From contig JAFLEF010000045.1 in NCBI GenBank assembly GCA_017309115.1, positions 1 through 63,164 on the forward strand: 63,164 bases of DNA. Direction: 5' to 3'. The notes under the pieces were generated by a model that was given only the letters and a program-made list of their open reading frames with translations, was not told the origin of the DNA and searched no databases. The DNA is from Verrucomicrobiota bacterium. Its GTDB lineage: Bacteria > Verrucomicrobiota > Verrucomicrobiia > Limisphaerales > UBA9464. Shown here in pieces: positions 1,285 through 60,894 of this stretch. The translations under genes and the position numbers were made by a program. Each line of letters begins with the position of its first letter. Position 1 is the stretch's first letter.

Positions 1285-1312
1285 ATAGACCATAGACCGT
1301 CGTTCGTCGTTC
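1285..1312. repeat. Heptamer tandem array: ATAGACC x2 then GTCGTTC x2
   Basis: Four consecutive 7-bp blocks: ATAGACC at 1285-1291 and 1292-1298, then GTCGTTC at 1299-1305 and 1306-1312. Two different units abut each other, each perfectly duplicated. The array lies in a gap between a hypothetical gene and a broken antitoxin. Confidence 0.8.
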
Positions 1313-1449
1313 TAAAATTGCCTGATAAGAAAACTTAGCAGGCAAAAGCGGGAACGGTTCTTTGTTCTTTGTAAGCGTCCGGGGAAACCCATCTGGTAGG
1401 GTTGTGGAGTGGAAGGTTAGAGTTGGGGATGGACGATGTGGAGCGAGTG

Positions 1450-1470
1450 GTGTGGGGTGTGGGGTGTGGC
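1450..1470. repeat. Heptamer tandem array: GTGTGGG x3 (last unit one mismatch)
   Basis: Units at 1450-1456, 1457-1463 and 1464-1470; the third reads GTGTGGC. On the minus strand this lies at the 3' end of the antitoxin fragment, where it encodes the unnatural HTPHPTP tail. Confidence 0.75.
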
Positions 1471-1552
1471 GGATGATGATTTCGACTTCCTGATTGAGAG
1501 CGTTGATGAAGCGAAAGAGGCGGTCGGAGGAGAATCCTTCCACACCGAGGTA
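1456..1552 (-). pseudogene. C-terminal fragment of a HigA-type (XRE) antitoxin
   Basis: On the minus strand this stretch encodes GFSSDRLFRFINALNQEVEIIIR. That is the signature C-terminal segment of HigA/XRE antitoxins of the FSTDRLxRFLNALxxDVEIxIR type. The DNA-binding helix-turn-helix that should precede it is absent: upstream on the minus strand the reading enters the duplicated segment starting at 1540. No partner toxin is next to it. It is a relic truncated by the duplication boundary. Confidence 0.6.
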
Positions 1553-2250
1553 AAGTTGAGGGTGGGTTGATCCTGACCAATGGCTTGTATTGGGGGGTTC
1601 CAGGAGGGGCATGTCTTCTATTTTCTATTTCGAACGTCCCGGTACATTTTTCACCCTGCAGGATCCGGGGGCGATTTTGCGCTACTACGACCCGGCGCGG
1701 ATGTCGCGGGAGGAAATGGTCGAACTGGCCCGGGGCACCATCGGCAAGCTAGGCGTGGCGTTGGAAGACGTGCTGGCGGAGCAGGAACCGGTGGTGGTTC
1801 GTCCGGAGGAGATCGCCGGCCTGCCCTCGATTCCGCGTCTGCAACTGGAGTGGGCCTGGCCGAACCGCGCGGAGCGCTCGCAGTGGATCCAGGTGGAAGT
1901 GGATGCGGAACGGGGCACGGTGGAATCGATCCTGGTCGATGACACGAGGCTGTGGGGAAAACCTCCCTTGATCCTTGATCGACGTTCCGATCGCCGACCC
2001 TTCCCTCCGCCGCAATTGAAGGAAGGACCCAACCGGGTCGCCCATTAGCTTTTTTGGGCTGAGCGATCGTTCCAAGGAGGAGGTTTCTTTGGTGGAGTCA
2101 CCCTCCCGGCGCACCGCGACACTTCCCCGCGTGAAATCCTAAAAGCACGCCTGGGCGGGAAAGGAACGCTCAAGCGAGGAACGGAAGCGGCGAGCTTCTG
2201 CCAAGCCGACCCGTAGATCCTTGAACGTTCCGTACCCGCCCCACCATCGG
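1540..2250 (+). repeat. Duplicated segment, copy 1 (deleted and frameshifted)
   Basis: This stretch matches 4761-6112 almost base for base. Copy 1 lacks about 612 bp (an in-frame loss of about 204 codons between EQEPVV and VRPEE) and a 37-bp block after the stop, bounded by TTAG repeats. It carries one extra G in a G run near 1592 and two 7-bp tandem duplications (1616-1629 and 1967-1980). Copy 2 carries its own 7-bp duplication at 5837-5850. Summing these differences accounts for the length difference between the copies. Confidence 0.85.
1541..2048 (+). pseudogene. Broken copy of the two-repeat hypothetical protein at 4.6-5.8 kb
   Basis: Aligned to the intact paralogue, the reading begins in one frame (ILTNGLYWGV). 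It shifts after an extra G and a 7-bp duplication into the frame that reads FERPGTFFTLQDPG. It then jumps from the first to the second internal repeat (EQEPVV to VRPEEIAG). Another 7-bp duplication changes the frame again after GKPPLI, so the C-terminus (DVPIADPSLRRN in the intact copy) is replaced by an unrelated tail. The open piece at 1590-2048 (152 residues) is unlikely to give a functional product. Confidence 0.75.
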
Positions 2251-2448
2251 TTCCGTGACACTGACGTTGACCATTGACCCAAGCGGGTGTCCCAAAGCGC
2301 CTACGAACCGTCGTTGTGCGGATGATGTCCGCAGGCCGCACTGAAAATCCGACCTCGACAAGGTGGTAGTAGGCGCCTCTATCCGTGTTTCGGAATTCCT
2401 AGATAGGATGGACTTGCCCATTTCATCACCGCTTGGTAAACAAACATC
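2251..2448. other. Gap between duplicated segment and CHAT-like gene
   Basis: No gene, repeat or terminator recognised here. It must contain the promoter of the following gene, but I cannot pick out one convincing pair of promoter boxes. Confidence 0.3.
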
Positions 2449-4590
2449 ATGAAGCCTTGGAAATGGAGCCGCTTGGTATGCATCGTGTTCATGCTGGCGT
2501 TTACTCTCGTGAAGGCCAGGGGCATAAATGACACACGCATTACGGTACAGGGTTCCGACATCATTCTGCGATGGACGAGTTATCCTGGAGAGCGATTTGT
2601 TATCCAACAGCATCCTGATCTATGGGCGCGAGGTGGCTGGATCACTTTAAATGATGGCTTTCCAGCGGAGCCTGATGGAAACACGACGACCTTCATTCAG
2701 CAGGATGCGGTACAAAATCCTGAACCGTGCGAGGGGCGCTCCGGACGGTCACCAAGGCCTAGGCAAGAACGGGCCGAGCTTAGAGTTCCGAGCATTGAAG
2801 GTGCAGTCGACGCGACTATGGAAACTGGGGCATTTTGGGTAGAAACTCGGCCAACCGCTAAGCAGAAGCTGCTACGACACGGCGAACAGCCACCTCTTCC
2901 ACCTTCTGGACATCTGTCCCCGGAAGCACGACAGCGCCTCCGTGATCATCATCGACCCCGACCATCTTCCAGACGTCCGTACCGATCGCCATGTGGTGTC
3001 TCGCAAGGCTTTTTTCGGGTCATTTTGATTCCGGACTTTGTTGCCAACTATGAAACTCCATTCGAATTCACGGAGGGAATTGAGTTCATGCCGATATCGT
3101 TCGATGTGGATCCTGAGGAGATTGCCCAAGTGGAGTTGTTTGTTAACGGCCACAGATTTCCGTATGCTGACCTACGTTACGATGAAGATAATGGCCAATT
3201 TGGGATCCTGTTCAATCACGACCGGCTAGCGAATGGTACTTACAACATTCAACTCAGAACAACTCTTCACACTGGGACTGTTCAATCAACGGACACAGGC
3301 AGTACGATTGTTGTGAGCGGACGAGAATTTGAGACTAAAATAAATAATCCGATCAGTTTTTTTGATTGGAATGAGCTAATCGTTGGCAGCGAGGTATCCT
3401 TTCAGGCCCACGTCGCCGCCTATCCAGCGGACTGGACAATTGAGGTTTTTGACGCCGATCCTGAAAATTTTGATCCGATCCGGGTCGAATCGGGATCAAC
3501 GCAGGACGGAACCATCAACTGGACGTGGGACCTGCGTGATTCCGCAGGCAATGCCAGAACGTCACTGGAGTCCGATCCTTACTTTATTCCGGTGGTCACT
3601 GTTCTACCCCGTAGTTCGGATGCGTTGGCGGCCCCGATCAGCCGGCGGGGACCGTCGACAGCCTTGGACTATCCTGCGAGCGGAAGCTGGATCTTCGGCT
3701 ACCAGGATTCCGACAAGTCTTCAGGTCCCTCCGCGCGGGAAACGATCCGCAATGCCATCTACGCTTTGCCGGGATTCATCAACAACGAGGGGCTTGGGAG
3801 GCATTTGGTTGAGCTGCCTTTTGGGAGAGATTTGAATGATGACGGAACCGATGATGATCCAGCAGAGGCTCAGCGGCTCCGGAATGTAAAGTGGCAGGAA
3901 TTGGCCAATTATTTCTTTGATGTCCCTTACGGTCGATGGAGAAACTTCTACTACATGGGACATGGCACTGAGCACTGGGTGGGTGGTGATTTTGAACCTG
4001 ACAGGAGCAATGTGCGGCAATTCTCGCTAATCAACCCCGAAAGCTACCTACGGGATGGAAAATTGATCGGTTCTAATGCGCGCCTAACCTCGGAGGCCGT
4101 TCGCCGAGGCCTGACCTTTAACACCGATTTCGGGCCACGACCCTACCGATTTGCCTTTCTCGATGGATGCGCCACTGCCGCCGGAGATTTTCCCGAGGCA
4201 TTTGGAATCGGGAAACAGCAGAATGACCTGGCGTTTTATAAGGATGCGCAACGAAACCCGCGGAGGACGCGTCCGTCGGCATTCGTGGGTTGGAGCGAGT
4301 TGATTTATTATTCCACCGTTCAAGGCCGTCCGGGTTCAGTGCAAAATCCTCAGACCGGTGGAGTGGATACTTGGGGTGACTATCAGCAATATGCCTTTTT
4401 TCGTACCCAATGGATGTTCAATTGGCAAAGCAATCCTAATTTTCGTTTGTTAGATTCTGCACTCCGCGAAGCCCAACGAACAACGACCTGGATTCAACTG
4501 CAAACCTACAATCGTGTGTTGAAGATCTACGGATTCAAAGATCTTAGCTTTAATGAATTTAATCAGAAGGCGGATTGGCCAATTCCGTGA
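2449..4590 (+). CDS. Secreted caspase/CHAT-like peptidase candidate, possibly frameshifted internally
   Basis: The 713-residue protein begins with a signal-peptide-like stretch (MKPWKWSRLVCIVFMLAF). A beta-rich middle part resembles Ig-like/FlgD-type modules (SFDVDPEEIAQVELFVNG; WTWDLRDSAGNART). The C-terminal third carries a His-Cys pair in the order expected of caspase/CHAT/gingipain-fold peptidases: YYMGHG with His505 and FLDGCATA with Cys574. Residues about 95-190 look out of frame: arginine/proline-rich and unnatural. From 2843 the +1 frame reads a plausible HLLDICPRKHD...SVIIIDPDHLPDV, and one extra T in the T6 run at 3010-3015 would rejoin it to the main frame (KAFFRVILIPDF). So either two compensating indels or a sequencing error. 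GC content is low for the window. Substrate unknown. Confidence 0.65.
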   Translation: MKPWKWSRLVCIVFMLAFTLVKARGINDTRITVQGSDIILRWTSYPGERFVIQQHPDLWARGGWITLNDGFPAEPDGNTTTFIQQDAVQNPEPCEGRSGRSPRPRQERAELRVPSIEGAVDATMETGAFWVETRPTAKQKLLRHGEQPPLPPSGHLSPEARQRLRDHHRPRPSSRRPYRSPCGVSQGFFRVILIPDFVANYETPFEFTEGIEFMPISFDVDPEEIAQVELFVNGHRFPYADLRYDEDNGQFGILFNHDRLANGTYNIQLRTTLHTGTVQSTDTGSTIVVSGREFETKINNPISFFDWNELIVGSEVSFQAHVAAYPADWTIEVFDADPENFDPIRVESGSTQDGTINWTWDLRDSAGNARTSLESDPYFIPVVTVLPRSSDALAAPISRRGPSTALDYPASGSWIFGYQDSDKSSGPSARETIRNAIYALPGFINNEGLGRHLVELPFGRDLNDDGTDDDPAEAQRLRNVKWQELANYFFDVPYGRWRNFYYMGHGTEHWVGGDFEPDRSNVRQFSLINPESYLRDGKLIGSNARLTSEAVRRGLTFNTDFGPRPYRFAFLDGCATAAGDFPEAFGIGKQQNDLAFYKDAQRNPRRTRPSAFVGWSELIYYSTVQGRPGSVQNPQTGGVDTWGDYQQYAFFRTQWMFNWQSNPNFRLLDSALREAQRTTTWIQLQTYNRVLKIYGFKDLSFNEFNQKADWPIP

Positions 4591-4595
4591 CCGTT

Positions 4596-5837
4596 ATGGA
4601 CCTCTTGTTTCATCCTGTCGAATGGATCCAAATCACTCCCAGGTATTCTAATGCAGTTGTAGCAGCCGTGCTGCCCCGTCTGGCCGAAGCCGCGATTAAG
4701 CTCGGCTCGGAAATTCCTGTTCCGAGTGACCCGTCGCAAGTAGCTCGGTTTTCCGTGGTGCCACACCGAGGTAAAGTTGAGGGAGGGTTAGTCCTGACCA
4801 ATGGCTGGTATTGGGGGTTCCAGGAGGGGCATGTCTTCTATTTCGAACGTCCCGGTACATTTTTCACCCTGCAGGATCCGGGGGCGATTCCGCGCTACTA
4901 CGGCCCGGTGCGGATGTCGCGGGTGGAGATGGTCGAACTGGCCCGAGGCACCATCCGCAAGCTCGGCGTGGCGTTGGAAGACGTCCTGGCGGAGCAAGAA
5001 CCAGTAGTGGAGCAGGCCCGCGGAATCGGCACCAACGTGGTCCCCCGTTTTCAGGTCCGGTGGCGCGACCCCCGAGGTGGTGACGCCGCCGTCCTCGAGA
5101 TCAATGCCCAGGACAAACGGGTGGAGAGCCTGCGTTTCGTCGGGCGGCGCACGCTTTACCGCCCTCCGCCGGCGGTCACGGTCCAGCCCGGACGCCTGCC
5201 GCCGGAAAGCCCCTTGCAGAAGCTCAATGAGGCCGGAGGCGTCAATCCGGCATATGCCCTCCGCCTGATCCCGCTGGTGCTGGAGGCCATCGGGGACTGG
5301 TCCGGCCGGTTGGGCTGGAGTCTAGCCCTTCCGCTCACCACCAACCACGTGGAGCGTTTCTATGTCAGCGACCAGGGCGGCTGGCCGCATGCCGAAGTCA
5401 CGCTGACCAACGGCTGGTTCTTCCGGTTCCGCAATTCCGGACTGACCCAGGCCAGCTCGCCTCGGAGTTTTTTCGAGAGTGACCGGCTCCCCTTCCGATT
5501 CCGGGATTATGTCGGTCAGTGGAAGCTCACGGAGGACCAAGCCATCGAAAGGGCTCGGCAGGCGCTGGCGCGACTCGATTTTCCGGCCGGGTTCCTGCAT
5601 ACGGCGGAGGCGCCCCGGGTGGTTCGTCCGGAGGAGATCGCCGGCCTGCCCACGATTCCGCGTCTGCAACTGGAGTGGGCCTGGCCGAACCGCGAAGAGC
5701 GCTCGCAGTGGATCCAGGTGGAAGTGGATGCGGAGCGGGGCACGGTGGAATCGATCATGGTCGATGACACGAGGCTGTGGGGAAAACCTCCCTTGATCGA
5801 CGTTCCGATCGCCGACCCTTCCCTCCGCCGCAATTGA
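4596..5837 (+). CDS. Hypothetical protein with two internal ~200-residue repeats
   Basis: The protein is about 413 residues if it starts at ATG 4596; an in-frame TTG at 4575 overlaps the upstream stop. Each half has the order: helical segment (AVVAAVLPRLAEAAIKLG / ALRLIPLVLEAIGDWSGRLG), a V-x-F...HRGxVxGGLxLTNGWYWGF / EVTLTNGWFFRF strand pair, a helix resembling PepSY-type motifs (EMVELARGTIRKLG / QAIERARQALARLD), and a closing strand with ExxAxxxxVESLxxxxxxLxRPP. No signal peptide is visible, though such proteins are often secreted, so the 5' end may have been lost at the recombination junction. The resemblance to PepSY/YcdB-like modules is only suggestive. Function unknown. A broken paralogue lies at 1.5-2.05 kb. 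Confidence 0.6.
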   Translation: MDLLFHPVEWIQITPRYSNAVVAAVLPRLAEAAIKLGSEIPVPSDPSQVARFSVVPHRGKVEGGLVLTNGWYWGFQEGHVFYFERPGTFFTLQDPGAIPRYYGPVRMSRVEMVELARGTIRKLGVALEDVLAEQEPVVEQARGIGTNVVPRFQVRWRDPRGGDAAVLEINAQDKRVESLRFVGRRTLYRPPPAVTVQPGRLPPESPLQKLNEAGGVNPAYALRLIPLVLEAIGDWSGRLGWSLALPLTTNHVERFYVSDQGGWPHAEVTLTNGWFFRFRNSGLTQASSPRSFFESDRLPFRFRDYVGQWKLTEDQAIERARQALARLDFPAGFLHTAEAPRVVRPEEIAGLPTIPRLQLEWAWPNREERSQWIQVEVDAERGTVESIMVDDTRLWGKPPLIDVPIADPSLRRN

Positions 5838-6112
5838 AGGAAGAAGGAAGGACCCAACCGGGTCGCCCATTAGGGCAGACGGTCAACCGGCAAGACACCA
5901 GCTCTCTTAGCTTTTTTGGGCTGAGCGATCGCTCCAAGGAGGACGTTTCTTTGGTGGAGTCACCCTCCCGGCGCACCGCGACACTTCCCCGCGTGAAATC
6001 CTAAAAGCACGCTTGGGCGGGAAAGGAACGCTCAAGCGAGGAACGGAAGCGGCGAGCGTCTGCCGAGCCGACCCGTAGATCCTTGAACGTTCCGTACCCG
6101 CCCCACCATCGG
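4761..6112 (+). repeat. Duplicated segment, copy 2 (full length)
   Basis: This is the longer partner of 1540-2250. The similarity covers most of the hypothetical gene and about 275 bp downstream, including a conserved non-coding stretch from TTTTTTGGGCTGAGCGATCG to CCCCACCATCGG. Copy 2 has a 7-bp duplication (AAGGAAG twice) at 5837-5850, immediately after the stop codon, that copy 1 lacks. Confidence 0.85.
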
Positions 6113-6114
6113 CG

Positions 6115-6389
6115 ACCGGATTCACGCGCCACGCGCCCTCGCCGCGGCCCGACAATCTCCCACCGGATCTCGTGGCAATAAGCCGCCACCGCCATCGCCA
6201 TCTTGCTGATCGGGAATCGGGAGACAGCGCTGCGTCAGCAACTCCGCGATGGCCCGGAAGGAGGCGCACTCCTGCCGTAGCTCGATCATGACGTCCTTCG
6301 CCGAGGAAAGTTCCTGGAATATCTGCGGACGACGCGGTGTAAACGCGGCGACCGCCTGTCGGACGCTGGTGGGATCAAAGGAGGACATG
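6115..6389 (-). pseudogene. Small conserved-looking ORF, frameshifted by a 7-bp duplication
   Basis: From ATG at 6389 the minus strand reads MSSFDPTSVRQAV, then PRRPQIFQEL and later FRAIAELLTQRCLPI, a helical, HTH-like pattern with natural composition. The frame is then disturbed at 6208-6221, where GATCGGG is followed by AATCGGG on the plus strand. Removing one 7-bp unit joins LLTQRCLPI to SKMAMAVAAYCHEI in the next frame. The resemblance to small invertase/mobilisation-associated HTH proteins is weak and unproven. No promoter is evident. Interpreted as a decayed small gene; function unknown. Confidence 0.45.
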
Positions 6390-7054
6390 GCAGGACGGGA
6401 GTTGATGGAGGGGAGACACGGACGAGGACGAGACACGGAGAAGACCATTCCTCGACGTGGGCGTGGACATGCCGCGGCATTGGTAAGTTCCCGGACAAGG
6501 ACTGCCTTGGGATTGGCTACGGACTGACCGCGGTAAGTCGCGGGACTCGGACTGCACTGGGACAAACCGTTCCGCTGGAAGTGGACGGGTCGTGGACACG
6601 GATCTGCCAGCGGACTTGCCGTGGTCACGGCTTGATCAAGACCTTTGCGAAATCGCGGACGCGGCTTGGCCGATGCCAGGTCACGCACGAGTGCGCAGCC
6701 GCGGTTTCGTCCATCGGCACATCTATCGCACGACTGTTCCGCGTCTCTGGCGCGGCGACTCCGCGGACACCAAAACCTAACGGAGATTAGGGGTAACGCG
6801 TGCCCTCTAGAAGAGAGACTCCAAGTCGAGTCCGTTCGACGTCCCAGACCTGAACCAACCTCTCGGCCGTGGAATGGCAACGGTGAGCCGACTGGCGACC
6901 CTTTTCGAACATTCAGCCACCCTCGATGGATAGGGTCGATTCGGGAATACCAGCCCCCATTGCGGGACTCAGTGACAGTCCCCACTCGATCAAACTGGAT
7001 TGGTAATCCATCGCCCAGGGTGCTGTTCCAAACTGAATCAGAACGGTCTCACCG
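6390..7054. other. Gene-free tract rich in reiterated GTCC (minus strand)
   Basis: No gene is recognised in this 665-bp stretch. On the minus strand a long open frame runs through it but its composition (Arg, Pro, Ser, Cys) is that of a shadow frame. Between about 6420 and 6640 the tetramer GGAC/GTCC recurs at short, irregular spacing on one strand, and CCGCGG palindromes appear near 6472, 6528 and 6698. This is more regular than ordinary spacer. Confidence 0.4.
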
Positions 7055-7489
7055 TCACCGGCGCTTGCTGCCCCCGAGCCACCCAGCAGCGCGCCGGCTT
7101 TCAAGAAATTCGTATGGGAGCAGAATTGGCAGCCCGTAGAATTGTCCACCGAGCACACCCATGAAATCCTCGCGGTCGAGCGTGAGAAGGACTTGCGCCG
7201 AGGCGAGCGCCGTCAGAAGCACCGGTCGGTCTTTGCTCACTGGGAAAACGAGCACACGATTGAGACTCACCACGTCATCCACAATCACGAGTTGACGCCG
7301 TAGTGGTAGCCAATCGGAAGTCGCAACAGTGGGGAACTTCACCAGATTCCGAGTCACCTCCCCAACGACCCATGGGCTCGCCATCAGTTCCCAGCCCTGC
7401 GCTGGCGCGTATTGAAAAACCGCCCGAGACGAACCCTTCGCCGAACCGCACGCCGCGAGGAGCACGCTGGTGTCGAGAAACAACTTCAC
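7055..7489 (-). CDS. PIN-domain toxin of a VapBC-type pair
   Basis: The 144-residue protein begins with the PIN hallmark MKLFLDTSVLLAA. The first conserved acidic residue is in FLDTSV, and acidic residues of the central (GEVTRN) and C-terminal (LLTLDREDF) parts are in the expected order for a Mg-dependent ribonuclease. PIN toxins cleave RNA, often initiator tRNA or rRNA. The GTG start overlaps the antitoxin stop in a GTGA arrangement, so translation is probably coupled. Length is typical of the family (about 130-150). The C-terminal tail is basic (GWLGGSKRR). Confidence 0.8.
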   Translation of the reverse strand: MKLFLDTSVLLAACGSAKGSSRAVFQYAPAQGWELMASPWVVGEVTRNLVKFPTVATSDWLPLRRQLVIVDDVVSLNRVLVFPVSKDRPVLLTALASAQVLLTLDREDFMGVLGGQFYGLPILLPYEFLESRRAAGWLGGSKRR

Positions 7490-7686
7490 GCCTCGGCTAG
7501 AAAACGGCGGTAGCCAGCCTCATCGTCCGCGATCCATTTATCTATTTGCACCTTCGGAAGGTCGCGTGGCGGTGGCAAAACCCCGCCCGCCGCGTGCAAC
7601 CGCGTGGCGAGAAACAGCAGCAACTTCTGTTGATCCTGGGGCGCCAGCGATTCAGCGGCAGCTTCAATTTCGGACAGCGTGCTCAT
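7486..7686 (-). CDS. Antitoxin partner of the PIN toxin
   Basis: This short 66-residue protein starts at ATG 7686 (MSTLSEIEAAAESL). It has an N-terminal helix-rich segment (PQDQQKLLLFLATRL) and a C-terminal DKWIADDEAGYRRFLAEA that could wrap the toxin. The pattern of small acidic proteins with LSPxDQQxLLxFLAxRL is common for antitoxins preceding PIN genes. A longer in-frame reading to 7863 has no natural start and poor composition, so the shorter start is preferred. The stop codon overlaps the toxin start. Expected to bind and neutralise the toxin and to autoregulate the promoter. Confidence 0.75.
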   Translation of the reverse strand: MSTLSEIEAAAESLAPQDQQKLLLFLATRLHAAGGVLPPPRDLPKVQIDKWIADDEAGYRRFLAEA

Positions 7687-8909: not shown

Positions 8910-8954
8910 CAGAAGCTCCGGTGGTTCAATTGCCGCGCGGCCGATGGATCCGGG

Positions 8955-9974: not shown

Positions 9975-10054
9975 ATGGTTCGACCGATGGTGTCCGTTTC
10001 CGCTAAACAATGCACGCGGGCATCACAGGTTGGAATTTACAGCAATGTGGAGAC

Positions 10055-10250: not shown

Positions 10251-10413
10251 GCGCAGCCCGACGGCCTCCCGTCGCTGCACCGAAAGTTCTAGTACCAAAG
10301 ACGGATACCCCCGGCGCCGCGCTTCGGGTCACCGTGTTTGCACTCCCGCGACCCACGGTTCCAGAAAAGGAATCCTCGGTTCGCGGCTCCAGTTCGCCGG
10401 ATACTAGAAAGCC

Positions 10414-21713: not shown

Positions 21714-21868
21714 GGAGCGAGTCAGTTGAGATTCAAAAACCGAGCGAATCTTTGGTCCGGTCGGCTCAAGCGGCAAGCGGCATTTTCGGAAACGTGCTTT
21801 GGAAACCACTTTTCACGACTTGAGATTGACCCTCGGGCTCAACTTTCGTTGTCTGTGGTGTCCCCTGC

Positions 21869-27414: not shown

Positions 27415-27471
27415 GCGCCGCAGGTTGAACGAGTCCGAGAATCGAGAAACCGACCAGGGCTGAGTTCCTTC

Positions 27472-27499
27472 TCTCAACTCTCAACCTTCAACTCTCAAC
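27472..27499. repeat. Heptamer tandem array: TCTCAAC x4 (third unit diverged)
   Basis: Units TCTCAAC (27472-27478), TCTCAAC (27479-27485), CTTCAAC (27486-27492) and TCTCAAC (27493-27499), between the converging ends of thiD and ndk. The reverse complement of the same unit recurs at 60652-60665. Confidence 0.85.
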
Positions 27500-27503
27500 T
27501 ACT

Positions 27504-27920
27504 TCACGCCGGAATCTCATCCGGCCGGAAGAACCGCCGCACTTCGATTTCGGCATTCTCTACGGAGTCCGAGGCGTGAGCGATGTTCCGCATGTTGTCG
27601 GTGCCCAAATCGCCGCGAATCGTACCGGGAGCCGCTTTCTTGGAATCCGTGGGACCCAGCAGATCGCGCACCTTGGTCACGGCTTGATCCCCGGTCAGAA
27701 TGACCGCGAGCACGGGCTGGGAGGACATGAAGGTCACGATTTCCGGGAAAAACGGCCGGTCCTTCAGATGGGAGTAGTGCTCGGTCAGAATGGCTGGAGT
27801 CAGCCGCATCATCTTGGCGGCTTGCAACCGCAGGCCCGCGCGGGCAAAGCGCGCCAGAACTTCTCCGGCGAGGTTCTTTTCGATGCAGTCCGGTTTGCAG
27901 AGGATCAGTGTGCGTTCCAT
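27504..27920 (-). CDS. ndk: Nucleoside diphosphate kinase
   Basis: 138 residues from ATG 27920 (MERTLILCKPDCIEKNLAGE), standard length. The phospho-acceptor His lies in RNIAHASDS (usually RNIIHGSDS). Nucleotide-binding residues appear in KPD and in GTIRGDLG. It transfers gamma-phosphate from ATP to other NDPs. A longer frame to 27965 is not expected. Divergent from the Gfo/Idh/MocA gene. Confidence 0.95.
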   Translation of the reverse strand: MERTLILCKPDCIEKNLAGEVLARFARAGLRLQAAKMMRLTPAILTEHYSHLKDRPFFPEIVTFMSSQPVLAVILTGDQAVTKVRDLLGPTDSKKAAPGTIRGDLGTDNMRNIAHASDSVENAEIEVRRFFRPDEIPA

Positions 27921-28095
27921 TAGAGCGGGTCGTTGTGCCGGAATTCGGGACGTTGGTAAAGCCACGAAACCACGTCGACTCTTCCCGGTTCTCTCGTTCC
28001 CTCGTTCGCCCAGGCATCCGCCATGGTCTTACGTTGACCTCGAATCCCGACTCAGTAGTTTCCGTCCATCACCTCACAGTTTCACTCGCACTACC

Positions 28096-30476: not shown

Positions 30477-30735
30477 TGCGTTGGGGTATTCCTGACTCCC
30501 AACGTCCCTCGACGCGCCCCAAAGCGGCAGAGGGCTGCCGCACTCCAAACGCTTCGCGCCAGCCCCGCTTGCCGCTTCCCGCTTGCCGCTTTTCCCCTCC
30601 GCGTCCTCTGCGGGTGCCCCCTTCCCCTGGGGTCGTCGTCGAAGCGAGTGTCCATTCGACGCTGACCAGCAAAGGCCGCGTTCCTTCGCTGCGCTCGGAA
30701 ACGCGGGGACGGCCCAGCGGTCCATCCCTACCAAC
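30420..30735. repeat. Repeat-rich intergenic island with REP-like palindrome
   Basis: This stretch from the end of apbE to the PEP-CTERM terminator holds no gene. It contains a palindrome GCGGCAG-AGGG-CTGCCGC at 30524-30541 followed by CACTCCAAACGCTTCGCGCC, a heptamer array at 30565-30592, and a GC-rich segment with CGCGGGGACGGCCCAGCGG. Sequences of this style look like dispersed intergenic elements, but copy number cannot be measured from one window. Confidence 0.55.
30565..30592. repeat. Heptamer tandem array: CCGCTTN x4
   Basis: Units CCGCTTG (30565-30571), CCGCTTC (30572-30578), CCGCTTG (30579-30585) and CCGCTTT (30586-30592). Only the seventh base varies. Confidence 0.85.
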
Positions 30736-30782: not shown

Positions 30783-31319
30783 TTAGTTCTTGCGGCGAGC
30801 CACGAAGAATAGGCCCGCAACACCCAGAGCGGCCAGAACAACCGTGGAGGGTTCAGGAACGCCAACAATCAAGCCAGTCCAGTTCGAGTTCGCCGCAAAC
30901 GTAGCGGCCGGGGTAGGTCCACCACCGAGGTTGTTGATCGTGATCAGGCCCGAAAACATTGGGCTACCGATAAGCGCGTCCGCCCATGTGGCCCCAGTGG
31001 AGGCGTCCCAAGCGCGAACGAGGATGTTGGCGGACCCACCAGGCGCCACTCCCGGAACAACCAACCCGTTGATGAAGAAGAGACCATCGAGGGTCAGCGG
31101 GACTCCTGCCGCACCATTGGGTGACAGGAAGGAACCATCGAAGGCGTTCTGGATGGACACCTTGCCGTTAGCCTTGGGCAGCGGAGTGATTCCATCGAAA
31201 CCAAAAATGTAGGCCTTGGTCGAAGCACCAGGCACGGTGTAGTTGTTACTGGCGTTGAACGTCCCTTGGGCAAGGGCCGACAGGGTTGAGAGCAAGCCAA
31301 ACGCTATCAGGGTTTTCAT
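30783..31319 (-). CDS. PEP-CTERM protein, array member A
   Basis: 178 residues from ATG 31319 (MKTLIAFGLLSTLSALAQGTF). Signal peptide, a beta-rich body (NNYTVPGASTKAYIFGFDG; SFLSPNGAAGVPLTLDGLFFINGL), then the sorting tail VPEPSTVVLAALGVAGLFFVARRKN: the PEP motif, a hydrophobic helix and a basic end. PEP-CTERM proteins are processed by exosortase EpsH and attached or released at the cell surface, often with exopolysaccharide; no exosortase gene is in this window. It is the most downstream member of a tandem array and has its own terminator. Confidence 0.9.
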   Translation of the reverse strand: MKTLIAFGLLSTLSALAQGTFNASNNYTVPGASTKAYIFGFDGITPLPKANGKVSIQNAFDGSFLSPNGAAGVPLTLDGLFFINGLVVPGVAPGGSANILVRAWDASTGATWADALIGSPMFSGLITINNLGGGPTPAATFAANSNWTGLIVGVPEPSTVVLAALGVAGLFFVARRKN

Positions 31320-31408
31320 AACACGGAGATCAGAATTGCAGGGTTTCCGCAGGTTCGGGTTCTCGCCCAACAAACGAAATCAGAGCGGCACTTGGTGGAG
31401 AAGTCAGC

Positions 31409-53499: not shown

Positions 53500-53505
53500 A
53501 CGCGG

Positions 53506-54360: not shown

Positions 54361-54523
54361 GGAGCGGGTCCGTGGGGCAATTCCCCCATTCGAGGACCAG
54401 GCCAAGGCGAAACTAGGCTCCGCCGGGGGACCAGGTTAAATCCGCGTTCGCCGCCGGAAACCACTTGACCAGGTCCGCCTCGCCCGACGGAAATGTGGAG
54501 AGTCGTTTTCCCGCCGCCCACCT

Positions 54524-55567
54524 ATGAAATTAACTTCGCTCGCTCTGTTGGCCGCTCTCTCCGCCCCCGCTGTCACCCTGGCCCAAGTGACGTTGGCTCC
54601 CTTGTCCACCTTCGGTGGCGGGGACGGCTGGCTCTCTCCCGGCGAAGGGGGATACACCTTCCTGGGAACCGGTAATCTCGAGCGCGGACTGGCCTTCGGT
54701 AACAACCATCTCTACCTCGTTTCCCGAGCCGGAGGTAACAACGTTCGCATCCTCGACTCGGCCACCGGATCCGACTTGGGCGGCCTCAACGTGACCGGTA
54801 TCACGGGTGGAACGTTTGCCGTTAACATGGCGGGAGTCGGAGGCGACGGAGCTATCTATGTCGGCAATCTCACCACCTCCGCTGCCACCGCCTTCAAGGT
54901 CTATCGTTGGGCTGATGAATCCGCCGCACCCACGGTGGCCTACGAGTTAAACCCCGGTCTGCCCCGGATCGGCGACTCGTTCGCCGTGACCGGCAGTGGT
55001 GCCGGTACCGTCATTGCCGCCAGCGGTACCGGATCCTCCGGATTCGCCACCTACAGCAACGGCACGGGGACCGCCGTGGCGGTTCCTGGGACCGCCGCCG
55101 GCGACTACCGACTCTCCCTGAGCCTCATTGATTCCGATTCCCTCGTCGGCACCCAGGGGGGGACCTGGAAGTTTACCGACTTTAGTGGCGCAACGGGCAC
55201 TTTGCTGAACAGCGTCGCCACTACGTCGGCCAGCGAACGACTTCTCGCCTACTCCGTCGTGGGTGGTTTCCCGCTCCTGGCCACCACTGACACTGTCTCT
55301 TCGTTGGTTCGAATTTATGACGTGAGCAATCCCGCCAGTCCGCAACTGCTGGCTTCCGCCAACAACACCTCGGGAACCCTAGCCGCCAATGGCAACGGTG
55401 TCGGTTCCATGGCTTGGGGGAACATCAGCGGCAATTCGGCCACTCTTTACGCGATGAGCGCCAATCAGGGCATTCAGGCGTTTACCGTAACGGTCGTTCC
55501 CGAGCCTCAGGTTTATGCCCTCGCGGCTCTTGGCCTCGGCGCGCTCTGGTTCTTCCGCCGCCGCTGA
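54524..55567 (+). CDS. DUF4623-like protein with PEP-CTERM sorting tail
   Basis: 347 residues. Signal peptide MKLTSLALLAALSAPAVTLAQ. One propeller unit like those in the 826-residue neighbour (ERGLAFGNNHLYLVSRAGG; GGTFAVNMAGVGGDGAIYVG; FKVYRWADESA). C-terminal sorting tail VPEPQVYALAALGLGALWFFRRR (PEP motif, helix, Arg end). Probably attached at the cell surface by exosortase. A perfect terminator follows. Confidence 0.92.
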   Translation: MKLTSLALLAALSAPAVTLAQVTLAPLSTFGGGDGWLSPGEGGYTFLGTGNLERGLAFGNNHLYLVSRAGGNNVRILDSATGSDLGGLNVTGITGGTFAVNMAGVGGDGAIYVGNLTTSAATAFKVYRWADESAAPTVAYELNPGLPRIGDSFAVTGSGAGTVIAASGTGSSGFATYSNGTGTAVAVPGTAAGDYRLSLSLIDSDSLVGTQGGTWKFTDFSGATGTLLNSVATTSASERLLAYSVVGGFPLLATTDTVSSLVRIYDVSNPASPQLLASANNTSGTLAANGNGVGSMAWGNISGNSATLYAMSANQGIQAFTVTVVPEPQVYALAALGLGALWFFRRR

Positions 55568-55587
55568 TCAACCAGGGTTCCGATTCA

Positions 55588-55616
55588 CCCGATCCGGTTT
55601 ACCGGATCGGGTTTTT
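55588..55616 (+). terminator. Intrinsic terminator
   Basis: CCCGATCCGG, loop TTTA, CCGGATCGGG, then TTTTT: 10 perfect pairs directly after the DUF4623/PEP-CTERM gene. Confidence 0.93.
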
Positions 55617-55642
55617 CTTTGTTCATCCATGGGTTGGCTCGG

Positions 55643-56821
55643 TTACTCCCCGGCTCGCCGCGTCTGCCACTTCCTATTCAGCTCCGCCGCGGCTTCCAAC
55701 TGCCCACTTCGCGCATTGGTCACGGTAACACTCCAGTCGGAAGCCTGACCTTCAAAGTCAAAGACCCACAACGCCGCCAGATCGACCTGTTCCCGCGTCA
55801 ACTGATCGACCAACGCCGCCCACTTCCGCTGATTCTCCGGTCCCCAATCCCCCGGCACGCCAAACTCACCGACAAAGAGTGGCTTCTTCAGTCGCCGGGC
55901 CGTGGTCACCGCCCAGGGAAGGACCTGGGAGTCCGACTCTGCGTACAACCGACCGCTGAGGGTATTCACCGGGTCCGGATTGTCCCCGGCCAGCATCGCC
56001 GACCATTGCTCCTCGGAGTCCCGCTTCCAGGACCGCTCCGACTGTTGATGCCAAGCCGTTGGCCGGGGAAAGGCGTGACCGCTCAAGATGGCCCGGTCCG
56101 GATCGTGCCGGCGCACTTCCCGGGCGAATTCCCGAACCGCCGTGCGCATGTGCTCGTGGGTGATCTCATCGCGGGCGGTTCGGATCGCAGGCGTTCCCAA
56201 CGCCGGCACCACGGGCGGACGATGGTCAGCGGCGTTGGGAAGGTCCGCCGGAAGATTGTGCTCATTACCAAACTCCCAGGCCCAGACTGCGGGCGACGCT
56301 CGATATCGTAGAACCACTTCACGGGTGTACTGCCGCATCAAGTCGCAGGTCCGGCTGCGGGGATCTCCCCAAGCGCTGTGGGGTTCGCCCACCAGGTCCG
56401 GAATCGTCGGACCATGCCAGAACAGCGAAGGAATCAGCCCGATCCGCAGCCGTTCGGCCGCCTGCACCACCCGATCCAACCGCGCGAAGTAATCTGTCCG
56501 ATTGGTCTGATACAACCCCCAATGGATCGGCCAATAGCCTCCGGCCGAAAAACGGGCAAACGGAATGCCCTTTTCCGCGAGCTGCGCCAGTCCAACCTCC
56601 GGCGGAACTGCCGTCGAGGCCTCGAGGCTGCGGACAAACAAGTCGTAGTAGTTGACGCCCACGCCGCGAAACGGCCGGCCAGCCAAGACCCAACGGCCGT
56701 CAGCACTCACCCGCAGTCCGGGAGCATCGGCCGCCCCAAGGCGCGCCATAAATGCAGTCAGCATCAGGCCAATCACCCAGGCGAACCGGGGAAGAATTCT
56801 TTGGGGTGAGACGTGATTCAT
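55643..56821 (-). CDS. Secreted GH5-like glycoside hydrolase
   Basis: 392 residues from ATG 56821. Signal segment FAWVIGLMLTAFMARLGAAD. TIM-barrel features of clan GH-A: FRGVGVNYYDLFVR, acid/base in WAWEFGNEHNLP and nucleophile in LFVGEFGVPGDWG, about 150 residues apart as in cellulases/mannanases. Likely exported polysaccharide endo-hydrolase; substrate not predictable. The frame continues upstream to 57067 but overlaps the divergent YaeQ-like gene there. Confidence 0.85.
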   Translation of the reverse strand: MNHVSPQRILPRFAWVIGLMLTAFMARLGAADAPGLRVSADGRWVLAGRPFRGVGVNYYDLFVRSLEASTAVPPEVGLAQLAEKGIPFARFSAGGYWPIHWGLYQTNRTDYFARLDRVVQAAERLRIGLIPSLFWHGPTIPDLVGEPHSAWGDPRSRTCDLMRQYTREVVLRYRASPAVWAWEFGNEHNLPADLPNAADHRPPVVPALGTPAIRTARDEITHEHMRTAVREFAREVRRHDPDRAILSGHAFPRPTAWHQQSERSWKRDSEEQWSAMLAGDNPDPVNTLSGRLYAESDSQVLPWAVTTARRLKKPLFVGEFGVPGDWGPENQRKWAALVDQLTREQVDLAALWVFDFEGQASDWSVTVTNARSGQLEAAAELNRKWQTRRAGE

Positions 56822-56954
56822 GATTGGATCGCCGATCCATCCTACGGCGGCCCCGACTGGGCAAGGTTGAACTCGGATTCGACGCCGGGAGTTCACCTGG
56901 CCGATCATCTTGCGACTGGTCGCTGACGACCCTGCGTCGCATGCTGCCGCCGCC

Positions 56955-57503
56955 TTGGCCGCAAAGTTCACCTTCCAGTGCACCAGCGATGACCGTCGGC
57001 GTCCCCTTCCGCACAAAATCTTGTTCGGGCTGGGCGTCAATGAGACGGCCCGGCACATCATGCTCAAATTTCTGGGCTGGGTGCTGTTCTACCGGTACCG
57101 TTTGGCGGTGGAAACGGACGTGCAGAACGATGCCATCCCGTTTGTGCCCGACTTATGTCAGCTCGGCTACGACATGCGACCTCTCCTGTGGGTCGAGTGC
57201 GGGGAATGCAGCGTCGGCAAATTGCACAAACTCGCCGTCAAATGTCCCGAAGCGGAACTCTGGGTCATCAAGGGCTCGCCCGGGGAAGTCCAAACCCTTC
57301 TCCGCGGCATGGCGAAGGAGGAGTTACGGCGGGACCGCTACTCCCTACTCGCCCTGGACCCCGAAGTTTTTGAGGAACTGGTGTCTCTGTGCCGCGAACG
57401 CAATCAGTTCCACCTCCACCGGGCCGACTTCGAGGAACGCCACCTGCAATTTGAATTCAACGAGCTCTGGTTCGATACCACCTTTGAGGTGTACCGTTTC
57501 TGA
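56955..57503 (+). CDS. YaeQ-family protein
   Basis: About 182 residues. No ATG is available: TTG 56955 gives MAAKFTFQCTSDDRRRPLPH, while TTG 56910 is an upstream alternative. Body: KILFGLGVNETARHIMLKFLGWVLFY, VPDLCQLGYDMRPLLWVECGE, CPEAELWVIKG and HLQFEFNELWFDTTFEVYRF. The pattern agrees with YaeQ-like nuclease-fold proteins (PD-(D/E)XK-related) of unknown role. Start region overlaps the divergent GH5-like gene's leader. Confidence 0.7.
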   Translation: MAAKFTFQCTSDDRRRPLPHKILFGLGVNETARHIMLKFLGWVLFYRYRLAVETDVQNDAIPFVPDLCQLGYDMRPLLWVECGECSVGKLHKLAVKCPEAELWVIKGSPGEVQTLLRGMAKEELRRDRYSLLALDPEVFEELVSLCRERNQFHLHRADFEERHLQFEFNELWFDTTFEVYRF

Positions 57504-57663
57504 CGTCGGAAGCAGGTCTCCGGAACCGGCGGGAGGCGGGAAAAATCCTCACCAACCGCCCCGAATTGAAAACAGGGCTTGCACTCATTGGCCGGCCTCG
57601 TCACTTTCCGCGTTCCTTTTCAGGGAAAACGCCGGTGTTTGACCGGCCCGAAATCATACGCTT

Positions 57664-57927
57664 ATGGCAGTCAAAATTCGATTGAAGCGCGTTGGCGCCA
57701 AGAACAGCCCGGTCTTCCGGGTGGTCGTGGCCGACGGCCGCAGTCCGCGCGACGGCAAGTTCCTCGAAGAAATCGGGACCTATCAGCCGCTCAAGAAGGG
57801 CGAAAACGTCCAATTGAACCTCGACCGGGTGAATTACTGGGTCGGCGTCGGCGCCCAGCCGAGCGACACCGTCGCGAGCATGATTCGCAAGGCGGTCCGC
57901 AATGCCCCGGCTCCGGTCACCGCCTAA
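57664..57927 (+). CDS. rpsP: 30S ribosomal protein S16
   Basis: 87 residues with the classic [20 protein letters not shown] start, [21 protein letters not shown] and [14 protein letters not shown]. First gene of a conserved translation cluster with khpA, trmD and rplS. Confidence 0.98.
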
Positions 57928-57944
57928 ACACTTTTCGCACGGGT

Positions 57945-58178
57945 ATGCAGGCCTTCATCGAGTTCGTGGCGAAGCGCCTAGTCAACCATCCCGAAGAAGT
58001 CCGGGTGGATTCCGATGACCGCAATGGGTTGACCGCCTACCGACTTCATCTCGCCCCTGGCGAAGCCGGCAAGATTATCGGCCGCCGCGGGACCACCATT
58101 CAGGCCATCCGGTCGGTGATGCAGGTGGGCGCTCAGAAAAAGGGCGTCCGCTGCACCCTCGATCTGGCGGATGAATGA
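57945..58178 (+). CDS. khpA: KH-domain RNA-binding protein KhpA
   Basis: 77 residues from ATG 57945, 17 bp after rpsP. One type II KH domain with GKIIGRRG (G-x-x-G motif) followed by [16 protein letters not shown]. The start [18 protein letters not shown] is typical. KhpA with KhpB binds many RNAs and links to cell division in Gram-positive bacteria. Its stop overlaps an ATG at 58171 that opens the trmD frame. Confidence 0.92.
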
Positions 58179-58218
58179 AACCACGGCCCGCGCGGGCAGA
58201 CAGGACCGCGCCTTGCCG

Positions 58219-58929
58219 ATGAAGATTGATGTACTGACCCTGTTTCCCGGGATGTTTTCGGGGCCGCTGGATGAAAGCATCCTCAAGCGCGCCCGACAGT
58301 CCGGGATTCTGGACTTAAAGATCCACGATTTGCGGGATTGGACCCATGACCGTCATCGGACGGTGGACGATTCCCCCTACGGCGGGGGACCCGGTATGGT
58401 CCTGAAGCCCGAACCGCTCTTTGAAGCCGTCGAAGCCCTTAAGGCGCGCGAACAGGAGACCCGAGTCATCCTGACCGCTCCCAGTGGTCGTCTGTTCAGT
58501 CAGGCGATCGCCCGGGAGTTGGCCGCCGTCCCGAATCTGCTGCTCATCTGCGGCAGTTACGAAGGCTACGACGAACGGGTGCGGGAACATCTGGTGGATG
58601 ATGTGCTGAGTATCGGGGACTATGTCCTCACCAACGGCAATCTGCCGGCGATGGTGATCATCGACACCGTCACGCGGTTGCTCCCGGGAGCGCTGGGTGA
58701 CGAATCCAGTCCGCTGGATGAATCGTTCAGCCACGGGCTGCTCGAGTATCCGCACTACACCCGTCCGGCCGAGTTTCGCGGCTGGAAGGTGCCTGACGTG
58801 CTGTTGTCAGGAAACCACGCCGCCATTGAACACTGGCGGAAGGCGCAGGCGGTCAAACGGACCGTGGAGCGCCGACCCGATTTATGGGACGAGCTGCGGT
58901 GGGCTCGACCCAAGCGAAAAGTTTCTTAG
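58219..58929 (+). CDS. trmD: tRNA (guanine-37-N1)-methyltransferase TrmD
   Basis: 236 residues from ATG 58219 ([13 protein letters not shown]); an in-frame ATG at 58171 overlapping khpA is an alternative translational start. SAM-binding trefoil-knot motifs: [27 protein letters not shown] and [23 protein letters not shown]. It methylates G37 of tRNAs reading CNN codons. RimM, which normally lies directly upstream, is missing from this cluster. Confidence 0.97.
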
Positions 58930-58944
58930 GAAGAGGAGTCTGCC

Positions 58945-59316
58945 ATGAACAAAGGTGCATTGTTTGACAAGATTGAGGCCGAGCAATTCCGCAAGGAGCC
59001 GGCTAAGTTTAACGTGGGCGACAGCGTCCGCGTTCACTCGAAAGTCGTCGAAGGAGACAAAGAGCGAATCCAGGTGTTCGCCGGCGTCGTTATTGGTGTC
59101 AAAGGCCGCGGCCTGAACCAAACCTTCACCGTCCGCCGCATCAGCTACGGCGAAGGTGTGGAACGAGTTTTTCCGACCCACTCTCCCCGCGTGGAGAAGG
59201 TCGAAGTCGAACGCGCTGGCAAGGTCCGCCGGGCCAAGTTGACCTACCTGCGCGGCCGTATTGGCAAGGGCGCCATGGCGGTCAAAGACAAAGACATTTC
59301 GGGATCCGGCAAGTAA
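58945..59316 (+). CDS. rplS: 50S ribosomal protein L19
   Basis: 123 residues. [45 protein letters not shown] and [13 protein letters not shown] are standard. A clear Shine-Dalgarno (AGGAAGAGGAG) lies upstream. Followed by a strong terminator. Confidence 0.98.
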
Positions 59317-59338
59317 TTGCCGGGCGCCGAGGAGGAAA

Positions 59339-59371
59339 ACGGGGCGGGGAGAGCACCCTGCCCCGTTTTTT
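59339..59371 (+). terminator. Intrinsic terminator after rplS
   Basis: ACGGGGCGGGG pairs with CCCTGCCCCGT with one mismatch, then a T6 run. Ends the rpsP-khpA-trmD-rplS transcript. Confidence 0.9.
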
Positions 59372-59402
59372 CATGCTCACCTGCTCCGACTCACCCGGGC
59401 GA

Positions 59403-60431
59403 TCAGCGCTTCCACGCCATCACCCCTCCCCGAGCCGCTCCGCCCGGAAACTCGCGGAAGTCCCCGAAACCCGCCTCGGTCAGCAGTTCTTCCATTTCCC
59501 CAACTCCGTAGCAGCGACCTTGGGTCGCATGCATCAGCATCACGGAATACTCCGCCACGTGCAGCGGACCGGCCTTGTCCCGATCTAGGAAGGCATCATG
59601 GATCAACACCGCCCCACCCGCCGGTAACGCCGCCCACGACCGCGCCAACAGTTCCCGCACGATCGGAACGTCCCAGTCGTGCAGGACGTTGGAAAACAGG
59701 TGCAGATCCGACCCCTCCGGAAATTCCCCCTGCAACATGTCCCCGGCCACCACCGTTACCCGATCGGAAAAGCCCCGCTGCTGAATGGCCGCCGCACAGA
59801 TCCGGTCCACCGGTGGCTTCTCCAGGACCGTTGCCTTCAGCTGCGGAAAGTGCGCACAGAGCGAACAGGCATAAATCCCGGAGCCGCCGGCGATATCCAA
59901 CAAGGATCGAAATGACTCCAGCGGCAGGTGCGACGCCAGCGCCTGAGCCAGGAATACTCCCCGACAATCCATCGCGGCGGTAAACGACTGGGCAAAGCCC
60001 GGCTGTTCCATCGCCCGATGCCAATCCAGTTGATCCGTCTGGCTACCCCAGTTGGCCGGTCGATCCGTCCGCAAGACCCGCAGCAGATCCGCCGCCACCG
60101 GCCGATCCTTGAGCGACGCATAGTACGGCCCAAGGTACCACGGCGAGCCCTGCACCAAGTGTTCCCGAGCCACCGGCGTCACCCCATACCGCCCCTCCTT
60201 CAGCTCGAGCAATCCCATCGCGCGAAACAACGTGAGCATCACATCCGTCGGCCGGGCGGTCAGACCATGCCGCCGGGCTATCCCAGCGGCGTCGGTTGGC
60301 TCCGCCGCCAGACCGCTGAACAAGTCCAGTTGGATCAGCCCAACGATCAGCAGGTCTTCCGCATACAACGCGTCGCGATAACGGTAGAGTGTGGTGGGAT
60401 CGGTCGCCGGCGCCTGCGTCAGGGGAGTCAT
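59403..60431 (-). CDS. SAM-dependent O-methyltransferase-like protein
   Basis: 342 residues from ATG 60431 (MTPLTQAPATDPTTLY). N-terminal dimerisation-like helices (LLIVGLIQLDLFSGLA; GIARRHGLTARPTDVML) precede a class I methyltransferase domain with SAM motif LLDIAGGSGIYACSL, VVAGDMLQGEFPEGSDLHLFSN and the HDW motif in VLHDWD. Layout is that of plant/actinobacterial hydroxyneurosporene- or phenol-type O-methyltransferases. Substrate unknown. Convergent with rplS; the rplS terminator lies between them. Confidence 0.88.
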   Translation of the reverse strand: MTPLTQAPATDPTTLYRYRDALYAEDLLIVGLIQLDLFSGLAAEPTDAAGIARRHGLTARPTDVMLTLFRAMGLLELKEGRYGVTPVAREHLVQGSPWYLGPYYASLKDRPVAADLLRVLRTDRPANWGSQTDQLDWHRAMEQPGFAQSFTAAMDCRGVFLAQALASHLPLESFRSLLDIAGGSGIYACSLCAHFPQLKATVLEKPPVDRICAAAIQQRGFSDRVTVVAGDMLQGEFPEGSDLHLFSNVLHDWDVPIVRELLARSWAALPAGGAVLIHDAFLDRDKAGPLHVAEYSVMLMHATQGRCYGVGEMEELLTEAGFGDFREFPGGAARGGVMAWKR

Positions 60432-60651
60432 GCCGGACAACGTACCGGAGGAACCGAACTCCTAGCAACGATCCCGCTCAGCTCTCCATGAACCGCCGTA
60501 GCCGCGGACGGAAGGACGCGCCATCTGAATTCCCACCGCCCAACCCGCAAACTCGGCATGGAGTCCTGGTGACCGGACAGCGCCTCATTCCCGCGTCGGT
60601 TCATGGCGTTAACTCGCGTCCGTTTTGGAGGTTTTCCCTACCCACAAACCA

Positions 60652-60665
60652 GTTGAGAGTTGAAA
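60652..60665. repeat. Two heptamer units, GTTGAGA + GTTGAAA
   Basis: Reverse complements of TCTCAAC and TTTCAAC, the same unit as the array at 27472-27499. Only two copies, so the smallest example. Confidence 0.6.
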
Positions 60666-60836
60666 GGAGCCAAAACCGAGGAAACGGATGTGCCTTGGGG
60701 CCAAGAACCGGGTAGGGCTAGTAGTGCGGGATTCATCCCGTCCCCCCAGCGCCGATTCACCCCCAGGGGCCGCCTGAAGGCGGTACTACGAACAAGGGGC
60801 GGTTCATGGGTATTTGAGAAACAAGCAGGCTCCCGC

Positions 60837-60857
60837 GCTTACCGCTTACCGCTTCCC
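60837..60857. repeat. Heptamer tandem array: GCTTACC x3 (third unit diverged)
   Basis: GCTTACC at 60837-60843 and 60844-60850, then GCTTCCC at 60851-60857. The unit is close to the CCGCTTN unit at 30565-30592 in another phase. Confidence 0.85.
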
Positions 60858-60866
60858 CCTTCCGAC

Positions 60867-60894
60867 CTCTCAGCTCTCAGCTCTCAGCTCTCAG
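60867..60894. repeat. Heptamer tandem array: CTCTCAG x4
   Basis: Four perfect copies at 60867-60873, 60874-60880, 60881-60887 and 60888-60894, nine bases after the previous array and eleven bases before the stop of the pseudopilin gene. Confidence 0.92.

Follow-up and report, generated by a model that had tools for sequence, protein, structure and literature searches.

Tandem 7-bp arrays recur across the window, i.e., the whole stretch of 63,164 nucleotides that was analyzed, namely contig C52 from the 7.53 Mb draft genome of a Verrucomicrobiota bacterium. We hold with moderate confidence that these arrays are, for the most part, edge modules of small, mosaic, MITE- or REP-like repeats that were dispersed among the intergenic regions and multiplied in this lineage, a reading drawn from sequence comparisons. 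A module would mostly consist of two to five copies of a purine-rich heptamer with a consensus near GNYRARV, and modules would often stand as an inverted pair around a core, with the purine arm first and the pyrimidine arm after it. Spread would have occurred mainly through copying of the element sequence, as supported by recurring flanks and by the dispersed element E1 described below, and elements would have landed beside genes or within their last codons.

In the 10.3 kb of noncoding DNA of the window, 11 exact 7-bp tandems were found, compared with 0.86 ± 1.0 in simulated sequence, and none of 200 simulations reached this number. Unit lengths of 4, 5, 6 and 8 occurred at or below expectation, and lengths 9 (n = 2) and 12 (n = 1) were also above it, by a small excess. 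A 12-bp tandem, TGACATCGTATA, is present in 2.1 exact copies at 62440-62464. A preliminary description of the window had listed seven places with tandem heptamers. Such tandems were present at all seven, but some details of unit and copy number needed correction. The supposed single ATAGACC array at 1285-1312 resolved into two neighboring two-copy arrays, ATAGACC then CGTCGTT; the tandem at 27472-27499 has four copies, one of them imperfect; the 7-bp period at 30565-30592 is produced by two variants, CCGCTTG and CCGCTTC, in alternation; and 60652-60665 holds two copies only, which are inexact (GTTGAGA, GTTGAAA). The two arrays in 60836-60896 were clean, with 2.7 and 4.3 copies. Weaker arrays had been overlooked, e.g., at 1357-1372, 21767-21782 and 57528-57541. 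The statement that all arrays lie in gaps or dead sequence agreed with gene calls from a simple in-house program, as distinct from a curated annotation, but 1449-1469, 30564-30591 and 60652-60665 fall within mechanically defined ORFs.

The array at 27471-27500 starts 3 nt beyond the stop codon of the nucleoside diphosphate kinase gene, and its purine strand is directed out of the 3' end of that neighbor. An exact match to the E1 terminus lies at 60638-60659. The oddest units of the window (ATAGACC, GTCGTTC and GTGTGGG) formed one array each in the first 462 kb. Rfam gave no match on the window at gathering scores. The protein encoded at 30783-31373 carries a PEP-CTERM sorting motif.

Table 1. 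Heptamer arrays of the window and the genes beside them.
Feature	Position	Strand	Remark
ATAGACC + CGTCGTT, adjacent two-copy 7-bp tandems	1285..1312	.	singleton units in first 462 kb
GTTCTTT x2.3	1357..1372	.	singleton unit (first 462 kb); absent from preliminary description
GGTGTGG x3.0	1449..1469	.	singleton unit (first 462 kb)
CAAGCGG x2.3, GGCAAGC family	21767..21782	.	
GTTGAGA-family array; plus strand CTCTCAA x4.3, one variant unit	27471..27500	-	
Nucleoside diphosphate kinase gene	27504..27965	-	Pfam NDK, E 3e-48
AAGCGGG/AAGCGGC-type array; plus strand CCGCTTG/CCGCTTC alternating	30564..30591	-	
GGCGGGA x2.0	57528..57541	.	
E1-family element end: CTACCCACAAACC, GTTGAGAGTTGAAA-type units, GGAGCCAAAACCGAGGAAACGGATGTG	60638..60692	+	contains array 60652-60665
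GGTAAGC array; plus strand CGCTTAC x2.7	60836..60854	-	
GCTGAGA array; plus strand CTCTCAG x4.3	60867..60896	-	8 nt from next gene's stop
Gene with N-terminal methylation (pilin-like) motif	60905..61831	-	Pfam N_methyl, E 6.5e-8; 3' end toward array 60867..60896

Unit lengths were then counted in a sample of 1.247 Mb of the 7.53 Mb genome, window included, which held 187 kb of noncoding DNA and whose contigs were picked partly from a list of array matches. Sequence generated by Markov models of order 1, 3 and 5 served as controls. Genes were called with in-house scripts (in other genomes, as the longest ORFs), and arrays lying more than half inside called genes were excluded from the noncoding counts. 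Length 7 yielded 340 exact noncoding tandems, compared with 17.8, 12.8 and 36.2 in the controls of order 1, 3 and 5, respectively; 80 tandems of this length were found in the coding DNA of the sample. The corresponding noncoding counts were 64 at length 6 (48-54 in controls), 26 at length 8 (2.6-8), 20 at length 9 (1.2-1.4), 11 at length 10 (0.2-0.6) and 10 at length 14 (0). The excess at exactly 7 that the preliminary description implied was thus large in both the sample and the window, but the peak was not unique, with lengths 8, 9, 10 and 14 also above controls. By number, nearly all surplus arrays have a 7-nt unit; in ratio, lengths 9 and 10 were raised about as much, and 7 is therefore not the sole favored length, even though the arrays at 9 and 10 are few. 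Among the ten sampled contigs, heptamer density per 100 kb was lowest at 7.6 and highest at 168; the maximum was that of contig C42 (loci L022-L025) and amounted to approximately 4 to 22 times the densities of the remaining nine. Pfam matches were obtained for six of ten scanned C42 proteins, including an epimerase, a SIS protein and a DUF3485 protein. DUF3485 goes with exosortase.

For the analysis of units, 308 of the 340 noncoding arrays were kept, and the 32 that could not be placed in a gap between two called genes were left out. Seven related units accounted for 261 of the 308 (GCTGAGA 89, GTTGAGA 67, GGTAAGC 44, GGTAAGG 32, GGGAAGC 16, GTTGAAA 7 and GGCAAGC 6). The remaining 47 arrays represented 42 other units, and 14 of the 47 differed by one base from a family unit. 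Once all heptamer runs had been masked, 195 of the 261 family arrays (102/146 when C42 was omitted) had flanks that recurred elsewhere in the sample, compared with 19/47 for the other-unit arrays and 141/400 for random noncoding positions, a background of 35% which indicates that noncoding DNA here is generally repeat-rich. Given this concentration in seven units with recurring flanks, the earlier proposal that length is constant and sequence free, and that no one element was copied, is not supported for this genome. Copy numbers of 2.3, 3.3, 4.3 or 5.3 were found in 119/261 family arrays, 91 of 113 GCTGAGA arrays share a single starting phase, and the inner flanks group into recurring modules; the gene-side flank of GCTGAGA arrays has no consensus. 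Purine skew was 5.33 versus 4.60 ± 0.22 for the 12 units of this genome with at least 2.5 copies, and an unconvincing 4.73 versus 4.60 ± 0.11 for unit sequences across phyla. At many intergenic places in locus L024 (C42:40001-60000), e.g., at about L024:240-265 and 1522-1550, GC-rich palindromic repeats that begin with GGTAGGGCGA(G/C)GCTCC and have GAGCC ends adjoin heptamers; in these we see a resemblance to GTAG-headed REP sequences.

E1 spans about 160 bp and is made up of a heptamer arm, an 80-bp core, a second heptamer arm and GGTTTGTGGGTAG. Its core had 44 matches in this genome and none in four relatives of the genus, and seven copies, the query included, were 99-100% identical. When 30 copies were compared with their flanks, the flanking sequence was found to diverge beside the heptamer arms. 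These properties are those of a multicopy, short, non-coding element that was dispersed recently. MITE and REP-type intergenic repeats are likewise short, multicopy and non-coding, and have inverted ends, a trait that E1 may share; in E1, by contrast, the ends are heptamer arrays, and the left ends are ragged and mostly truncated, unlike those of a classical MITE. A symmetric arrangement of CTACCCACAAACC and heptamers on both sides was present in few copies only. No target-site duplication was recognized by eye around the 30 copies, and among 43 terminus matches no inverted pair was seen to flank a gene of 1-2 kb, as an autonomous partner might; because neither a duplication nor a longer, transposase-bearing element was seen, the mobility of E1 is deduced from the distribution of its copies. 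The terminus had no match in viral contigs. That the arrays themselves are target-site duplications left by a transposase with a 7-bp stagger was rejected, given that this predicts direct repeats and the arms are inverted.

The right arm of E1 was 30 nt long in 22 of 28 measurable copies, 29 nt in two, 16 nt in two and 37 nt in two, the 29-nt arms being one-base offsets of the core or motif. Arms of 16, 30 or 37 nt therefore point to a change by whole heptamers, and these whole-unit differences lie between copies inside one genome. In one copy (L313), GCTGAGA units stand in place of the GTTGAGA units of the others, as if a variant unit can replace an arm. The likeliest cause of such changes in unit number would be slipped-strand replication with 7 nt as a favored step, for which contact with the polymerase may be responsible. 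The earlier suggestion of a mechanism that sets length thus gains from the stepwise arm of one element, but the idea was already published: PMC4679880 cites Mrazek (2007) both for a proposed 7-nt polymerase contact and for the finding that heptanucleotides outnumber every other class in the majority of genomes.

These published points also underlie a different reading, in which a general 7-nt slippage bias affects intergenic sequence of every kind and the unit families are merely its oldest winners. We regard this as possible, at well under even chances. Several non-family arrays occur in the window, where about 0.9 arrays in all would be expected, and heptamer-rich genomes of other groups likewise had too many length-7 arrays, built of different units. 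In a genome collection, at least 119 stretches contained (GTTGAGA)3G, and the record titles of the 80 matches listed included Bacteroidales, Fibrimonas, Planctomycetota, Anaerolineae, cyanobacterial and other records. At these 80 loci, which were selected for GTTGAGA and form no census, 276 tandems of length 7 were counted with coding DNA and the loci-selecting arrays included, compared with 33 of length 8, and many other units were represented. Among seven of those genomes, a strong noncoding peak at length 7 was found in three, i.e., G438, G442 and G440, with 22, 30 and 15 tandems, respectively (6, 5 and 1 at length 6; 7, 2 and 0 at length 8); the small samples from G444, G437, G443 and G439 gave 4, 3, 1 and 0. 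About half of the further genome stretches were chosen near GTTGAGA matches. Two counts speak against a general bias. When stretches from 19 other genomes of this phylum were examined, about 31 kb of noncoding DNA held four length-7 tandems, approximately the rate of the control for our genome, and in our genome the share of non-family arrays is small (47/308).

Distribution among relatives was patchy. Doubled GTTGAGA was found in three of five genomes of the genus (our genome included) and elsewhere in the family in 5/46 genomes, with one match each, and tripled GCTGAGA in eight of the phylum's 387 genomes, again including ours. A family relative that has no doubled GTTGAGA (G026; L239, contig C1) contains a long AGGCATC array of 11.4 copies. 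In viral contigs, (GTTGAGA)3G occurred in 42 stretches, compared with 3, 2 and 6 for three scrambles of the same composition. Sporadic presence among relatives, and identical length with different sequences across genomes in the listed loci and chosen stretches, would suit a dedicated enzyme (a transposase, HUH nuclease or reverse transcriptase) that writes or amplifies heptamers, with 7 as its product length. Five matches to the Y1-transposase family (PF01797) were obtained in our genome, but this family also matched in 5 of 14 control genomes, Escherichia coli included, and copying accounts for most of what is seen in the present unit families. We therefore consider such an enzyme improbable.

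In our genome, family arrays that lie no more than 60 nt from a gene edge followed a strand rule. The purine-rich strand was directed outward in 88 of 100 such arrays at 3' ends and in 32 of 33 at 5' ends (120:13 in total), and in 55/67 and 17/18 cases, respectively, when C42 was omitted. Divergent intergenic regions obeyed the rule in 26/30 cases, and in mixed intergenic regions a purine array preceded a pyrimidine array in 212 of 219 ordered pairs. In the outer arms, units matched in 14 of 34 cases versus 9.96 expected, which was not significant (418 of 5000 shuffles).

The strongly kept purine-then-pyrimidine order might mean that the arrays are functional hairpins or 3' UTR elements, involved in RNA processing, transcript ends or gene insulation, and that selection maintains their inverted arms. 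Five of seven natural pieces folded into strong RNA hairpins (z -8.2 to -11.9), and in an Anaerolineae record (L086:7208-7279) the gap from a stop to an apparent start is essentially one heptamer hairpin. Against this stand the many single arrays, which were found in 48 of the 105 intergenic regions where family arrays occur. A single arm gave no strong hairpin, and neither did the window array beside the nucleoside diphosphate kinase gene when folded by itself (z -0.49). Moreover, 20 scanned proteins, mostly encoded beside arrays, had no common function. On balance, we estimate the chance that this functional reading is correct at about one in four, and continue to favor dispersed elements.

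The arrays also reach into coding sequence. Among 880 closed genes of the sample, the stop codon lay inside an array in 21 and an array started within 20 nt of the stop in 52 further genes, and eight of the encoded proteins had the C-terminal motif L(R/K/S)(A/V)ES. Repeat-encoded tails, i.e., common LRAES-type ends on otherwise unlike proteins, were observed on contigs C42, C35, C31, C33, C30 and C26. At one locus, the upstream protein in our genome ends in array-encoded KLRVES; in the relative G048, a 35-nt spacer that lacks any array separates two of the flanking genes, and the tail of the upstream protein is a different one. This one comparison fits insertion in our genome rather than loss in G048. 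Such insertions may be tolerable because several units hold TGA or TAA and a 7-nt period does not preserve the reading frame, so that translation running from a gene into an array would soon stop.

Stop codons were also considered as a cause in their own right. Stops were present in 40 of 48 units, slightly above the 34.5 ± 2.4 of letter-permuted units. As the main driver of unit choice, a stop-codon fence was rejected: the raw value of 40/48 contrasts with about 48% of local 7-mers, but permuted units reach 34.5 ± 2.4, and units with uninformative stops still follow the strand rule at 3' ends. In the cross-phyla pool described below, non-GTTGAGA units of this kind did so in 28/35 cases, and units with no stop on either strand in only 7/11. 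Stop codons account for at most part of the strand rule.

In other phyla, 86 arrays lay no more than 60 nt from a gene 3' end, and for 73 of them the transcript carried the purine strand, compared with a background of 0.546 (610/1118) in neighboring noncoding windows (p 3e-9). This pool combined the listed (GTTGAGA)3G loci, the further genome stretches and the viral-contig loci; for several of the cross-phyla counts, arrays below 2.25 or 2.5 units and near-identical duplicate contexts were left out. At 5' ends in other phyla no overall polarity was found (50/88). When viral contigs were omitted, the rule held at 5' ends in 18 of 44 single arrays and in 17 of 19 partnered ones. Inverted pairs in other phyla were purine-first in 58/63 cases, and in 7/7 in viral contigs.

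Much of this polarity has a precedent. In the available part of PMC4692102, Rehm and colleagues describe Xanthomonas GGGAATC arrays that lie near starts on the antisense strand and near stops on the sense strand, with stop-codon overlap and with inverted pairs that number 70 in one species and 75 in another. The Xanthomonas and Nostoc repeats (GGGAATC/GGGGATT) thus have in common with ours the heptameric unit, a position within 50 bp of a stop (sense) or start (antisense) and the stop overlap, and those of Xanthomonas also the inverted pairs. G-quadruplex formation was proposed as the reason for the Xanthomonas arrangement, and location and polarity here are similar. However, the commonest units in our genome, GTTGAGA and GCTGAGA (156 of 308 arrays), contain no GG and lack the four runs of at least three G expected of the Xanthomonas and Nostoc heptamers, which form G-quadruplexes, and yet follow the rule in gene position and polarity; only some units, e.g., GGTAAGG, yield G-runs. 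Because these two units have no GG, the strand rule cannot rest on G-quadruplexes generally. This explanation is largely refuted for both units, and we judge it very improbable.

Other known heptamers are more distant. The long 7-nt simple sequence repeats of Mrazek (2007), as represented in the available parts of PMC4679880 and PMC4692102, show the same excess at 7 and sporadic occurrence among genomes; here, unlike in that account, there are few families, recurring repeat contexts, a strand rule and array-made protein tails. MacGregor describes TAACTGA arrays across phyla in the available part of PMC4679880. Like ours, these direct repeats of Beggiatoaceae are intergenic heptamers with a patchy distribution, but they lie mostly upstream of start codons, the sets in the main genome being direct in 169 cases and indirect in one, and the unit differs; TAACTGA was absent from the 20 commonest of 49 units in our genome. 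The multicopy paired sites of Geobacter metallireducens (PMC2700814, available part) are also tandem heptamers with some opposite-strand pairs, but have other units and were read as regulator sites. STRR repeats of heterocystous cyanobacteria, to which the preliminary description pointed, are tandem heptanucleotides too. In open-licence full text, one rice paper was listed for doubled GTTGAGA and GCTGAGA units, and no paper joined heptanucleotide intergenic repeats with Verrucomicrobi. Judging from the available parts of the papers cited, the class and much of the strand rule are already known, and a Xanthomonas-like polarity is extended here. What is added is the rule in non-quadruplex units and in other phyla, a dispersed-element carrier and protein tails made from arrays.

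The purine strand on the transcript past stops in other phyla suggests a transcription-linked bias, for which naked purine-rich RNA that re-anneals to its template once ribosomes leave may be responsible; this is the weakest step of the main reading. We tentatively put forward, at odds of roughly one to four, that a multi-phylum process linked to transcription lets heptamers grow in ribosome-free RNA/DNA past stops, with the purine strand on the transcript, mirroring into hairpin partners and a preference for units such as GTTGAGA. If this were true, quadruplexes, single elements and stop codons would all be side effects of transcription-linked heptamer growth.

The preference for seven in bacterial tandem repeats thus belongs to a known class whose explanation is wanting in the works cited. 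Hundreds of arrays in few families, together with a strand rule in units that have no G-runs, make the question testable; since quadruplexes are not the general cause, transcription or hairpin formation is pointed to. The arrays also demonstrate a route by which proteins gain new C-terminal tails, of the LRAES type, from repeats.
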